Below are positions 20,218 through 24,545 of a DNA stretch of 42,159 bases, in pieces. The stretch covers positions 1 through 42,159 of the forward strand of contig NZ_AYKG01000028.1 in NCBI RefSeq assembly GCF_003788585.1. Direction: 5' to 3'. The notes beneath the pieces are model-generated. The model saw only the letters and a list, made by a program, of their open reading frames with translations, searched no databases and was not told the DNA's origin. The stretch's first letter is position 1. Each line of letters starts with the position of its first letter. The stretch comes from Salinisphaera japonica YTM-1. Its GTDB lineage: Bacteria; Pseudomonadota; Gammaproteobacteria; Nevskiales; Salinisphaeraceae. Both the position numbers and the translations under genes were made by a program.

Positions 20218-20361
20218 TTTGTTATCGCTTGAGCATGCCCAGAGGCGCGGGGCCGCCACAATCAGACGATGGCCAAGGCTGCCTTCGTGGTTCACGAACG
20301 CTGACGCGACAATCTGGCATCATCAAACCGCCACGTTGCCGACCGTCCGACGGCTCACCGT

Positions 20362-21255
20362 ATGAAACGTATCGATTTCGTCACCCTGCGGCTGTTCGTG
20401 GCCATCGCCGATACCGGCGCCCTGACCGCCGCCGCCGAGCGTGAGCACACCGCCCTTGCCGCCGTGAGCAAGCGCATCAGCGATCTCGAGGCCAGCCTGG
20501 ACACGAAACTGCTCTATCGCCAGGCCCGCGGGGTTGCCCTCACGCCGGCCGGGGATGCGCTTTTACATCATGCCCGCACCCTGCTCGACGCCGCCGGACG
20601 CTTGAGCGCGGATTTGAGCGAGTACAGCCGCGGGGTACGTGGCCATGTGCGGCTGCATGCCAATACCTCGGCGATCATCGAGTTCCTGCCCGCCGAGCTG
20701 GCCGCGTTTGCGCGCGCCCATCCGGAGGTGAAGATCGATCTCGAAGAAAAGATCTCGACCGAGGTGATTGCCGCCGTACGCGATGGCTTGACCGATATCG
20801 GGCTCTACGCCGGTCACGTGCCCGCCAACGGACTGGCGACCTTCGACTGGCGCAGCGACCGGCTGGTGCTGGTCACCCCGGCCGATCATCGCCTGGCCGC
20901 ACTGGATGAGGTCGCACTCGTCGAAGCCATCGACGAGGATTTCGTTGGCCTGCAACAAGACACCTCGTTGCATCGGCTGATCGCCGCCGCTGCGGAATCC
21001 GCGGATCGACGCCTGCGCATGCGTATTCAGGTGCGCAGCTTCGAGGGCATCTGTCGCATGATCGCGTCTCGTCTTGGCATCGGCGTATTGCCCGAAGCCG
21101 CCGTGACCGGGCATCTCCACCCGTTGGGCCTGGCGCGTATCCCGCTGACCGACGCCTGGGCCCGCCGCGACCTGCGCATCGCCGTACGCGACATGGACGC
21201 CCTGCCCGTCCTGGCCCGCGAAATGGTCGCTCACTTGCGTGCGGGTGGGTCTTAG
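20362..21255 (+). CDS. LysR-family transcriptional regulator
   Basis: A 297-aa regulator. The winged helix-turn-helix is at about 4-63 (LRLFVAIADTGALTAAAERE, AVSKRISDLEASLDTKLLYR). The substrate domain (about 90-290) has the LysR pattern with GHVRLHANTSAIIEFLP, GLTDIGLYAGHVP and RLGIGVLPEAAV. The next genes on the same strand, CoA-transferase and HMG-CoA-lyase-like, are a combination often controlled by a LysR gene beside them. Here they are separated from it by 1.1 kb of repeats. It is divergent from the SSS pair, which is the other possible target. Its TAG stop abuts the first repeat unit directly. Confidence 0.9.
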   Translation: MKRIDFVTLRLFVAIADTGALTAAAEREHTALAAVSKRISDLEASLDTKLLYRQARGVALTPAGDALLHHARTLLDAAGRLSADLSEYSRGVRGHVRLHANTSAIIEFLPAELAAFARAHPEVKIDLEEKISTEVIAAVRDGLTDIGLYAGHVPANGLATFDWRSDRLVLVTPADHRLAALDEVALVEAIDEDFVGLQQDTSLHRLIAAAAESADRRLRMRIQVRSFEGICRMIASRLGIGVLPEAAVTGHLHPLGLARIPLTDAWARRDLRIAVRDMDALPVLAREMVAHLRAGGS

Positions 21256-21671
21256 GCTTCGTTCTTCAAGACAATCCGCCGATGGGCGCCGATGAACACA
21301 GATGGCGGTTGTGTCACGAGACACAAGTACGTTCTAGGCGCCTCCGAGTATGGGGCGCTGTTCTTTAAAACTATCCGCAGATTTCACAGATTGCGCAGAT
21401 TGCGGATGCGTTTTGAGGCGTTGCAGGTTCGCGGCGCTGTTGGTTTGCTGGGCTTCGTTCGTTCAAGACTATCCGCCGATGAACGCCGATGGCGGGCTGG
21501 CCGCGAGGCGTTACACGCACGGGGCGCAACCGCTTTGTTGGCTTCGTTCTTTCAAGCTATCCGCAGATTACACAGATTGCGAATAGGCCTTGCGCCATTT
21601 CGGATACGGGGCGCTATCGGTTTTTCGAGCTTCGTTTGCTTCGCACTGTCCGCGGATGAACGCGGATGGCG
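21256..21671 (+). repeat. Forward half of mirror array: units B-A-B-A-B
   Basis: Five units share a head like TTCGTTCTTTCAAGACTATCC. Core type B has the form CCGCCGATGAACGCCGATGG: units 21256-21308, 21451-21495 and 21629-21671. Core type A has the form CCGCAGATTACACAGATTGC: units 21361-21405 and 21541-21583. Unit starts are 88-105 bp apart. Unit 21629 is the most diverged. The open frame at 21292-21798 is a by-product of the repeats. Confidence 0.85.
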
Positions 21672-21837
21672 AACGGGTTTTGCGAGGCAACGAGTGGTTG
21701 GCGCCACCTTTATTGATGACTCCGTCGCAAGACACGGTCGCGCCTATCTCGCTATTAAAAGCCTGACCACACGCTTTCAAAGAACCGGGCCCCGATAAAC
21801 GGTGGCGCCCGCAAAGGCCCTACGTCTCTGGGCCCAT
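21672..21837. other. Centre of the mirror array
   Basis: Inverted copies GGCGCCACC (21700-21708) and GGTGGCGCC (21801-21809) frame about 90 bp of mostly unrelated sequence. The right copy sits in the spacer block CCCCGATAAAC-GGTGGCGCC that elsewhere follows A units in the reverse half. So the centre looks like two facing A-unit flanks whose cores were lost or replaced. The dyad centre is at about 21755. Confidence 0.6.
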
Positions 21838-22288
21838 CCGCCATCTGTGTATTTCTGCGTGCATCGGCGGATTGCCTTAAAGAACGAAGCCGATAAAAGC
21901 CGTAACGCCCGCGTCATCTTTCGACAACTCGTGCACGTCCGCGATCTGCGTAATCTGTGAAATCTGCGGATAGCCCTGAAAGAACAAGGCCCCGATAAAC
22001 GACGGCGCCCACAACGGCCGCTACGCCTCTGCGCCCATCCGCCATCAGCGTATTTCTGCGTCCATCGGCGGATTGCCTTAAAGAACGGAGCCGATAAAAG
22101 CCGTAGCGCCCACATCATCTATCGCCCCTCGTGCGCGTCCACAATCTGCGTAATCTGTGAAATCTGCGGATAGCCCTAAAAGAACCAGGCCCCGATAAAC
22201 GACGGCGCCCACAAAAGCCACTACGCCTCGGCGCCCATCCGCCATCAGCGTTCATCTGCGTCCATCGGCGGATTGCCTTGAAGAACCC
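21838..22288 (-). repeat. Reverse half of mirror array: units B-A-B-A-B
   Basis: The same units in the opposite orientation: B 21838-21891, A 21941-21985, B 22039-22092, A 22141-22185, B 22239-22288. The B-to-B and A-to-A distances are 200-201 bp and the spacers are conserved (GATAAAAGCCGTA-CGCCC after B, GGCCCCGATAAACGACGGCG after A). This half is therefore a clean ~200-bp tandem repeat of a B+A dimer. The apparent minus-strand proteins here (21777-22118, 22115-22345) are translations of the repeat and not credible genes. Confidence 0.85.
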
Positions 22289-22346
22289 AACGCCAAGCCT
22301 TTCCAAACGACGAACGCTGTCTTGTCCGTTTATTGATTGCGACACG

Positions 22347-22369
22347 CTGCACGGCGTCTTAGCGTGCAG
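22347..22369. promoter_or_regulatory. Perfect dyad upstream of CoA-transferase gene
   Basis: CTGCACG, 9 nt, CGTGCAG, ending 23 bp before the ATG at 22393. It lies in the only non-repeat sequence (22289-22392) between the array and the operon, so it is a candidate operator, perhaps for the LysR protein encoded upstream, or a leader hairpin. Confidence 0.45.
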
Positions 22370-22392
22370 ATATCGCCTCCATCGAGTTCGTC

Positions 22393-23625
22393 ATGAGCGG
22401 TTCTACTTTGCAGGATGCGCCCCAGGCTTTGGCCGGGCTGAAGGTACTGGAACTCGGCCAGCTGATCGCCGGGCCGTTCGCGGCCAAGATGTTTGGCGAG
22501 TTCGGCGCCGATGTCGTCAAGATCGAGCCCGTCGGCACGGGCGATCCGCTGCGGCGTTGGCGCGTGATGCGTGACGGCACGTCGCTGTGGTGGCATGTCC
22601 AGACACGCAACAAGCGCTCGGTGGCACTCGATCTGAAATCGGCCGAAGGCCAGGATATCGTCAAGCGCCTGGTCGCCGAGGCCGATATCGTCATCGAGAA
22701 CTTCTCGCCCGGCCGGCTCGAGAAATGGGGCCTGGGCTGGGAGGTGCTCTCCGCACTCAACCCGCGACTGATCATGGTGCGTATCTCCGGCTACGGCCAG
22801 ACCGGGCCCTATCGCGATCGGCCGGGCTTTGGCGTGATCGGTGAGGCCATGGGCGGGATTCGGTATCTCACCGGCCAGCCGGGCGAATCGACCGTGCGTG
22901 TGGGCGTGTCGCTAGGCGATTCGCTGGCCGCACTTTACGGCGTGATCGGCGCCCTGCTGGCCTTGCAAGAACGTCACACCTCGGGCAAAGGCCAGTATAT
23001 CGATGTCGCGCTCTATGAGTCGGTGTTCGCGATGATGGAGTCGCTCATTCCCGAGTACGACGCCGCCGACGTGATCCGCGAGCCCGGCGGCTCGGCGCTG
23101 CCCGGCATCACGCCCTCCAACGCCTATCGCTGCGCCGACGGGCGCGAGGTGCTGATCGCCGGCAACGGCGACTCGATCTTCAAGCGCTTGATGAACGTCA
23201 TCGGCCGCGACGATCTGGGCGAGGACCCCGAGCTGGCCCACAACGACGGGCGCAACACCCGCGCGGCCGAAATCGATGCCGCGATCGGCGAGTGGACGGC
23301 CCAGCACACCCGCGAGGACGTGCTGGCCGCACTCGAAGCCGCCCGCGTGCCCTCGGGCCACCCGTACAACGCCGCCGATATCGTGGCCGACCCGCACTAC
23401 GCCGCGCGCGAGATGATCCAGCAGATCACGACCCCCGAGGGCCGCGATCTGAAAGTACCGGGCGTGCTGCCGCGCCTGTCACGCACGCCGGGGCGCATCG
23501 GCGGCGGCGGCCCACAGCTGGGCGCGCATACCCGCGCCGTACTCGACGAGCTGGGTATCGATCGCGCCACCCAGGACGCGATGGCCGAGCGCGGCCTGCT
23601 AGAAGACGCCGGAGATGAGGCATGA
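22393..23625 (+). CDS. CaiB/BaiF family III CoA-transferase
   Basis: A 410-aa cytosolic enzyme that moves CoA between acyl groups. The N-terminal GLKVLELGQLIAGPFAAKM (about 15-33), GADVVKIEPVGTGD (38-51), NKRSVALDLK (73-82) and the catalytic Asp176 in VGVSLGDSLAALYG are all present. GYGQTGPYRDRPGF (133-146) and SGKGQYIDVALYESVFAMME follow. The donor and acceptor cannot be told, but linkage to an HMG-CoA-lyase-like gene suggests activation of a 3-hydroxy-3-methyl or branched dicarboxylic acid before cleavage, as in itaconate/citramalate-type or leucine-type breakdown. The stop overlaps the lyase start by 4 bp. Confidence 0.92.
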   Translation: MSGSTLQDAPQALAGLKVLELGQLIAGPFAAKMFGEFGADVVKIEPVGTGDPLRRWRVMRDGTSLWWHVQTRNKRSVALDLKSAEGQDIVKRLVAEADIVIENFSPGRLEKWGLGWEVLSALNPRLIMVRISGYGQTGPYRDRPGFGVIGEAMGGIRYLTGQPGESTVRVGVSLGDSLAALYGVIGALLALQERHTSGKGQYIDVALYESVFAMMESLIPEYDAADVIREPGGSALPGITPSNAYRCADGREVLIAGNGDSIFKRLMNVIGRDDLGEDPELAHNDGRNTRAAEIDAAIGEWTAQHTREDVLAALEAARVPSGHPYNAADIVADPHYAAREMIQQITTPEGRDLKVPGVLPRLSRTPGRIGGGGPQLGAHTRAVLDELGIDRATQDAMAERGLLEDAGDEA

Positions 23626-24545
23626 GCGCACAACGTGTCACTATCAACGATGTAACCGCCCGTGACGGCTTCCAGATCGAGCCGACCTGGATCCCCACGC
23701 CCGACAAGATCGCGCTGATCGATGCACTGTCGGCCACCGGCCTGGCCAAGATCGAGGCCACCTCGTTCACCTCGCCCAAGGCCATCCCCAACCTGGCGGA
23801 CGCCGGCGAGGTCATGAGCGGCATCACACGCGTCTCGGGCATCGATTACGTCGCCCTCATTCCGAATGAAAAAGGCGTGGAACGCGCCCTAGACGTCGGT
23901 ACCGACGAGCTCAACTTCGTCATGTCGGCCTCGGATTCACATGGGCGTGCCAATCTGCGCATGACCGCCGAGCAGTCGCTGGCCCGTTTTGCCGATATGG
24001 TGGACATGGCCGGCCACAGCACGCGCCTGAACGCCTCGATCTCCACGGCGTTTGGCTGCCCGTTCCAAGGCCCGGTGCCCGCTGAGCGCGTGCTGGAAAT
24101 CGTGGCCGCGATTGCCGATCTGGGCATCGACGGGGTCACGCTCTGTGACACCACCGGCATGGCCAACCCGCTACAGGTCGCCGCGCTTTGTGAAGCCGTG
24201 GGCGAGCGCCACCCGGGGCTGCAACTCACCCTGCACCCCCACGATACCCGCGGCATGGGCCTGGCTAACGCGTTGGCGGCCTGGCAGGTCGGCGTGATGC
24301 GCTTTGATGCCGCGCTCGGCGGGTTGGGCGGCTGCCCCTACGCGCCGGGGGCCTCGGGCAATATCTGTACCGAGGATCTGGTACACATGTTCGAGTGCAT
24401 GGGCATCGCCACCGGCTGTAATCTGGATAGGCTCATCGCCGCAAGCGCCACCCTGCCCGCGCTCATCGGCCACGACACCCCCGGCCAGGTGGTCAAGGCC
24501 GGCAAGGCCGACCGGCGTTATTCCCTGCCCGAACACGCCCGCTGA
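23622..24545 (+). CDS. HMG-CoA lyase-like enzyme
   Basis: A 307-aa TIM-barrel lyase of the HMGL family that splits 3-hydroxy-3-methylacyl-CoA esters. Key residues: R14 and D15 in VTARDGFQIE, HPHDTRG (205-211) for the metal, and the active-site Cys238 in GLGGCPYAPGASGNICTED (about 234-252). True HMG-CoA lyases usually have HFHDTYG, so the HPHDTRG variant hints at a different but related substrate. It is translationally coupled to the CoA-transferase (ATGA overlap), forming a two-gene acid-activation and cleavage module. Product is expected to be acetyl-CoA or pyruvate plus a keto acid, by family. Confidence 0.9.
   Translation: MSAQRVTINDVTARDGFQIEPTWIPTPDKIALIDALSATGLAKIEATSFTSPKAIPNLADAGEVMSGITRVSGIDYVALIPNEKGVERALDVGTDELNFVMSASDSHGRANLRMTAEQSLARFADMVDMAGHSTRLNASISTAFGCPFQGPVPAERVLEIVAAIADLGIDGVTLCDTTGMANPLQVAALCEAVGERHPGLQLTLHPHDTRGMGLANALAAWQVGVMRFDAALGGLGGCPYAPGASGNICTEDLVHMFECMGIATGCNLDRLIAASATLPALIGHDTPGQVVKAGKADRRYSLPEHAR

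Follow-up and report, generated by a model that had tools for sequence, protein, structure and literature searches.

An array of short iterated repeats lying between two ordinary genes of Salinisphaera japonica YTM-1 is probably composed of the nested, tandemly grown, non-autonomous ends of a MITE-like mobile element that is linked to genes of the GxxExxY protein family. The window, that is, the whole stretch of DNA analysed, comprises 42,159 nucleotides. Our reading rests on the anatomy of the repeats, on their dispersal and intergenic placement, on relatives that lack two of the elements, and on GxxExxY genes that are bracketed by such repeats across phyla, with a match between repeat class and protein clade and a co-occurrence specific to protein subfamilies.

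Anatomy and dispersal of the repeats

The array extends from the stop codon of a LysR-type regulator gene to the leader of a CoA-transferase gene, and its parts are as follows (window coordinates):

20362..21255, plus strand: left neighbour, LysR-type regulator gene (Pfam PF03466, PF00126)
21256..22297, no strand: whole palindromic array, ~1042 bp, from the LysR stop codon to the CoA-transferase leader
21268..21304, minus strand: left arm core 1, B type
21367..21400, minus strand: left arm core 2, A type
21463..21494, minus strand: left arm core 3, B type, two clear units
21555..21586, minus strand: left arm core 4, A type
21645..21670, minus strand: left arm core 5, B type, two clear units
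21671..21841, no strand: palindrome centre, the right part of which lies in the first 200-bp unit
21779..22286, plus strand: tandem 200-bp dimer, 2.5 copies (TRF), the feature first described
21842..21879, plus strand: right arm core 1, B type
21944..21978, plus strand: right arm core 2, A type
22043..22080, plus strand: right arm core 3, B type
22144..22177, plus strand: right arm core 4, A type
22243..22279, plus strand: right arm core 5, B type, the sole clean 10-bp triplet
22393..23625, plus strand: right neighbour, CoA-transferase family III gene (Pfam PF02515)

The cores consist of one heptamer in short direct repeats with a spacing of 9–10 bp, and they are arranged in two arms of opposite orientation that together form an imperfect palindrome of ~1 kb (B A B A B facing B A B A B). 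Alignment of the left arm with the reverse complement of the right arm scored 135.5, compared to a maximum of 18 in 100 shuffles. A sequence-only reading of this DNA had described the right arm, as a repeating dimer of ~200 bp in which A cores with 9-bp units alternate with B cores with 10-bp units. The five cores of opposite orientation at 21268–21670, which make up half of the structure, lie outside its coordinates, and the units that it assigned to the minus strand are on the plus strand of the window. The dimer is clearly supported, with an autocorrelation at lag 200 of z = 16.1 and at lags 99–101 of z 5.0–5.7, a TRF period of 200 with 2.5 copies and 89% matches (21779–22286), and 90% identity between successive dimers. 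The peaks at 9 and 10 bp that had been proposed along with the strong one at 200 bp are modest (z 2.8 and 2.9, respectively). Conservation of the spacers was also borne out: 21892–21940 and 22093–22140 are 84% identical with gaps, and 21986–22038 and 22186–22238 are 91% identical. The A and B cores do alternate as described, and the clean B triplet applies to the core at 22243 only, the other two B cores of the right arm having ATTTCTGCG as their middle unit. The ends of the array are tentative to ~2 bp, because AG is present at both junctions. The description of the array as iteron-like and not as decayed coding sequence agrees with the heptamer repeats and their spacing; two tested open reading frames (ORFs) overlapping the array had no Pfam match, leaving decayed coding sequence without support. 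Rfam covariance models gave no match up to E 1 across 20300–23700, and a structured RNA family was rejected on this ground.

The repeats are dispersed in their own genome, where BLAST found 74 matches. A and B profiles were trained on 38 stretches fetched around these matches, and after iteration they gathered 166 and 177 sites, respectively, and reached nearly one consensus, three ATCTGCG-like units followed by GATAGTCTT. The proposal that A and B are distinct core systems was rejected, since the trained profiles merge. The orientation of the cores is highly regular: at 36 places with at least two cores, the leftmost core is on the minus strand in 34 and the rightmost core is on the plus strand in 34, and neighbouring cores form 45 minus-to-plus, 8 plus-to-minus, 42 minus-minus and 47 plus-plus pairs. 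Only 13 of 185 cores fall inside ORFs of at least 200 aa, whereas 71% of positions drawn at random from these loci do so (L016, which overlaps L015, was left out of the orientation and placement counts). The convergence of the profiles, the inverted pairing and the placement outside long ORFs together indicate that A and B cores are the termini of a single MITE-like family. In this genome, a side often holds a stack of several ends. An unrelated repeat of ~294 bp (L034:3026-3319, corresponding to G000:C12:156625-156918) has many copies in G000 and several congeners among the matches listed; Rfam returned nothing above the gathering score for it, and one weak rsmX match lies nearby.

Comparison with relatives of the same genus provided a locus that lacks the array. 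At the window locus of congener G010, where the array is absent, GTCTAG is followed immediately by CCTTTCCCAAAG, so that the LysR stop codon directly joins the sequence that follows position 22297 in the window. The interval of ~21256–22297 is therefore probably an insertion; the difference may instead reflect precise loss in relatives. When both junctions of the window array were checked for a target-site duplication, AG alone was common to them. The array is present in the nearest relative at the window locus, G011 (92% identity), which holds this locus twice (G011:C19:33658-36125 and G011:C27:11522-13799). One of its array copies is full and the other, on another contig, is ~220 bp shorter, suggesting that the number of tandem units may vary. 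The doubling of the locus in G011 may reflect a duplicate, a strain mixture or variation in array length. A second element, L027, is found at the 3′ end of a G000 gene; the corresponding site contains only short spacers in G010, G001 and G006, and other spacers in G008 and G002. A profile scan found no core in 12 loci fetched around the window-array and L027 sites of relatives.

These observations bear on two other readings of the repeats. Iterons of plasmid- or chromosome-type replication also are short direct repeats with 9–10-bp spacing. However, the present repeats occur in dozens of genome-wide copies in inverted pairs and not in one origin cluster, the genes immediately beside the array encode a LysR regulator and a CoA-transferase, a congener has the locus without the array, and iteron triplets bracket GxxExxY genes in many phyla, as described below. 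Replication iterons were rejected because of the dispersal, and we give this reading next to no credence: inverted pairing, absence in the congener and GxxExxY bracketing make the cores look like element ends, not like an origin. A regulatory role, in which the repeats would be operators or terminators of GxxExxY or of neighbouring genes, or would act as hairpin RNA, is consistent with the mostly intergenic position of the cores and with the RNA folding of 21262–21960 (z -9.3 against 20 shuffles). Good folding, however, is common to any inverted repeat, and no Rfam match was found; furthermore, the repeats stand on both sides of the gene and are also numerous where there is no gene, and congeners lack the elements between the same genes. 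We consider the regulatory reading very improbable.

GxxExxY genes between the end-repeats

A partner with like ends was found, and its product is a nuclease. In the sequences read, the gene-carrying unit has the order end, gene, end. The bracketed genes belong to the GxxExxY family (TIGR04256 / PF13366 PDDEXK_3), the name of which implies no function; in the TIGR04256 profile, three of three representative proteins scored 143–147 bits compared to a cut-off of 35. Among 102 proteins, the residues E, D, E, K and Q are conserved in 102, 101, 102, 100 and 102, respectively, the first four being the catalytic residues of PD-(D/E)XK nucleases. A structure model (pLDDT 87.7, pTM 0.82) had as its best PDB match SSO0001 (4ic1), which we take to be a Cas4 protein, with a Foldseek E of 1.5e-3 and a probability of 1.00; no match reached 1e-3 or better. 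VIA-align superimposed the two with a Z of 10.1 and an rmsd of 2.9 over 97 residues. Further down the structure match lists are other Cas4 chains and lambda-type exonucleases, and one query for a solved structure of a sequence relative found none. The gene product is thus predicted, on the basis of the model, to be a Cas4-like PD-(D/E)XK nuclease fold of ~130 aa.

Among 41 relatives, PF13366 was present in 15 genomes and the repeats, as detected by BLAST, in 14; both were present in 11, the gene only in 4, the repeats only in 3 and neither in 23 (p 1e-4, kinship ignored). At 20 of the 22 GxxExxY matches of these relatives the locus was inspected for cores, and 12 of the 20 are framed by a left-hand minus core and a right-hand plus core, 3 are one-sided and 5 have no core on either side. 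Three of these five loci carry CGCAAAG-type repeats, which are invisible to the profile.

The bracketing extends far beyond the relatives. A scan of genome_contigs provided the best 80 of at least 565 GxxExxY relatives, a sample that over-represents the CAGAT clade because it was ranked by likeness to one CAGAT-clade protein. With the profile trained on the window's own genome only, a bracket within 250 bp was detected at 44 of these best 80 loci, and a core on at least one side at 53. Within 250 bp upstream there were 52 minus and 13 plus cores, and within 250 bp downstream 63 plus and 12 minus cores (same best 80 of at least 565 loci). The nearest minus core lies a median of 41 bp upstream of the protein match (47 loci), and the nearest plus core a median of 12 bp downstream (50 loci). 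We also applied a profile-free test, in which the best inverted match between 220 bp upstream and 220 bp downstream of the gene was compared to a null of 222 windows further out in the same loci. Flanking inverted repeats exceeded the null maximum at 65 of the best 80 loci, spanning 19 of 22 named phyla; 15 of the 80, including 5 of 17 from Bacteroidota, had no inverted repeat above it. A direct-repeat version of the test also exceeded the maximum at 28 of the best 80, which is expected with nested palindromic ends; the inverted test is therefore partly dependent on other local repeats. A second sample consisted of one locus each from 20 of the 48 matching genomes in a 249-genome phylum sample; 14 of the 20 loci were above the same null maximum, some with CGCAGAG, CACGAAG or CGCAAAG heptamers, and not all are independent, since several share one locus.

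Individual loci illustrate how such elements change. In L121:3363-4250, the right end of a GxxExxY element is made of several tandem units of ~170 bp, each with two or three cores and a spacer, an expansion that resembles the window array. L120 and L121 are the same locus, and the pair was therefore rejected as a case of transposition; between them, one end and its spacer have multiplied in tandem. L106 and L130, from two phyla, have 392 bp in common at 78% identity, confined to the gene and part of the end-repeat, a likeness that is suggestive only as a sign of movement. No near-identical gene-carrying copies within one genome were found at 75% over 250 bp among 40 loci compared. As candidate vehicles, phages were rejected with no match in 50,697 phage records at E 1e-8, and plasmids with matches in 8 of 72,556 plasmid records at E 1e-8, all 8 called non-mobilizable. 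Among viral contigs, one relative was found in 77 pattern matches.

The class of the end-repeat follows the clade of the protein. On a tree of the proteins, repeat class requires 7 changes, compared to a mean of 20.3 after shuffling, and none of 200 shuffles was as low; the count covers 82 labelled proteins, with CGAAT, CTAAT and CAAAT pooled and 20 of 102 proteins, those without a repeat class, left out. Host phylum is also clustered on this tree (22 states, 38 changes, shuffled mean 62.5), and the class was therefore shuffled within phyla, which gave a mean of 15.5 with none of 300 shuffles as low as 7 (78 rows). Bare change counts of phylum and class, with 22 and 4 states, are not comparable and were set aside in favour of the within-phylum shuffle. 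The tree itself is poorly resolved, with 54 of 98 inner branches open. In the window's order there are three protein clades with three end classes, namely CGCAGAT, CGCAAAT/CGCGAAT and CGCAAAG.

Co-occurrence within genomes is likewise specific to the subfamily. Of the 41 genomes, the five that hold the corresponding gene clade have 49, 33, 31, 10 and 8 repeats of ATTTGCG type (at most 2 mismatches), compared to 0–4 in each of the other 36 (p 1.1e-6). A strict ATCTGCG triplet is present in 9 of the 12 genomes whose GxxExxY gene belongs to the matching clade, and in 3 of the 29 that lack this clade (p 7e-6 on counts). Both counts include the gene elements' own ends, and both p values are too optimistic because the genomes are related. 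Exceptions occur in either direction: in G002, 17 strict ATCTGCG triplets were counted without any GxxExxY match, and G005, G007 and G025 carry the gene but lack a strict triplet. In the 249-genome phylum sample, a strict triplet was found in 6 genomes, a GxxExxY match in 48 and both in 3, one of the three being weak (G041, E 7e-4, below the family cut-off). The excess of triplet plus gene at the scale of phyla is thus weak, and the strict pattern is blind to other repeat classes. The remaining three triplet genomes, all of genus g79, have the GxxExxY start DEQTYAIIGAAM and a stop beside the repeats. The same start was seen in 5 of 20 further loci examined, one of them being a place already counted in g79. 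A mobile repeat whose outer inverted ends read CGCTCATGTTGCAA... is present at L212, L307, L308, L314 and L319, all from g79, and carries a truncated GxxExxY start together with its end-repeats. The g79 copies are enclosed by a different, larger inverted repeat, which may mean that they are moved by another system.

It could be argued that an unrelated transposase moves the ends in trans and that GxxExxY travels along as cargo, perhaps as a nuclease of defence or repair. To our knowledge, PD-(D/E)XK nucleases alone have no strand-transfer activity, and the g79 copies within another inverted repeat, as well as genomes such as G002 that have the repeats and lack the gene, point in the same direction. 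Passenger cargo, however, is not expected to match the class of its end-repeats, and GxxExxY is the sole gene seen between such ends in the seven loci read and in the copies at the metH-like site described next. We therefore regard a transposase acting in trans as an unlikely explanation, albeit one to be taken seriously.

At fixed sites, the elements turn over between close relatives. In the window's genus, a GxxExxY gene lies in a break between two ORFs at L189 (G000:C10:48633-51034) and its orthologues. The first ORF ends with LSGLEPF and the second starts like MTSAANFINIGERTNVTG; from these peptide ends we take the two to be methionine synthase, MetH, from an apparently split metH. Thirteen genomes were compared by eye at this site, with the partial G003 left out. 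The break holds a decayed gene with a clear right end in G001, a right-end remnant in G004, no GxxExxY in G009, G012 and G013, and other genes in G002; its content thus varies by species among GxxExxY elements, a decayed copy, other genes and a short spacer. The GxxExxY proteins of G000 and G011 at this break are 59% identical, compared to 92% identity at the window locus between the same genomes. In another family, L223 and L294 carry GxxExxY between two ORFs that presumably are trpD and trpC, as they read like these genes; their flanks are 93.5% and 90.5% identical in DNA, and their GxxExxY proteins 61%. Two explanations offer themselves: exchange of elements at fixed sites, or a much higher rate of change in the elements than in the DNA around them.

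This turnover is the main support for a homing-like alternative, in which the repeats are an independent family, a selfish GxxExxY gene homes into or is exchanged at repeat-framed places, and gene-less pairs are empty targets and not offspring. Different elements at the same site in close relatives, as in L223/L294 and at the metH-like break of G000 and G011, would fit such behaviour. The gene elements are nevertheless compact, given their short median distances to the cores, and no sign of a split gene-less element around the gene appeared in the loci read. Homing alone, moreover, leaves the dispersal of the repeats and the absence of the array from a relative unexplained, and we judge it to be quite unlikely.

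A proposed element and its place among known systems

We favour the reading of the array as stacked, gene-less ends of a GxxExxY-linked element, and the way in which it might have arisen can be outlined. The parent element would consist of an end-repeat, a GxxExxY gene and a second end-repeat in ~0.4–0.6 kb, with each end made of three 9- or 10-bp iterons, here of the ATCTGCG type. The nuclease would recognise its own iteron class and cut at or near the ends, and cutting would start excision or copying of the DNA between two inverted ends. Insertion, for the most part between genes, would then be completed by host repair; copies without a gene would be mobilised in trans, and recombination between the ~100-bp repeats would produce the B-A-B-A-B stack. 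Stacking by later recombination is illustrated, in another phylum, by L121 compared to L120. Binding or cutting of the repeats by GxxExxY, and its role as the cause of their mobility, are what we infer, and since mobility through the nuclease alone belongs to this part of the argument, we speak of a MITE-like element with a parent and not of a new class.

More tentatively, the same observations could describe a bacteria-wide class of minimal mobile elements of about half a kilobase, with a single Cas4-like nuclease as the mover, no transposase, an iteron alphabet for each clade (CGCAGAT, CACGAAT, CGCAAAT, CGCAAAG, CGCAGAG, CACGAAG) and gene-less offspring such as the window array; we find this broader reading plausible without leaning towards it.

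The elements resemble MITEs, or non-autonomous IS derivatives, in being short, gene-less and mostly intergenic, in having terminal inverted repeats and many copies, and in that a relative lacks the insertion. Unlike MITEs, their ends are triple iterons of 9–10 bp, and the gene found between such ends encodes a Cas4-like nuclease and not a transposase. A candidate target duplication is limited to the AG found at both junctions of the window array. REP and BIME sequences with their RAYT genes are intergenic repeats in inverted pairs and clusters, with a small gene flanked by repeats. The present repeats are likewise intergenic, inverted and clustered, and flank a small gene, but each arm contains direct iterons of 9–10 bp and not one short palindrome, and the gene encodes a PD-(D/E)XK nuclease, unlike RAYT. 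Homing endonuclease genes are selfish genes whose spread begins with the action of a nuclease. The occupation of one fixed site by different elements recalls them, whereas end-repeats and gene-less copies at many sites set the present elements apart. The protein shares with Cas4 and lambda-exonuclease-type nucleases its fold match and the residues E, D, E-x-K and Q-x-x-x-Y, but GxxExxY differs from them in being ~130 aa long, stand-alone and without conserved cysteines among invariant or nearly invariant columns.

The literature searched, a scope that excluded preprints and most subscription papers, contained no description of iteron-bracketed GxxExxY genes or of such elements, and two papers name GxxExxY in passing. 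Our results suggest that GxxExxY genes with iteron ends are a widespread, apparently undescribed form of minimal mobile DNA. Many genomes carry annotated GxxExxY genes of no assigned function, and in many phyla these genes are flanked by short CGCAGAT- or CACGAAG-like repeats; linking gene and repeats provides a testable role for the protein family and a likely source for the repeats. The reading also explains an odd array of 9-bp and 10-bp units between two ordinary genes. Should the nuclease alone drive movement, these would be transposon-like elements of a class that lacks a transposase. The agreement of repeat class with protein clade offers a DNA-recognition code that is open to testing.
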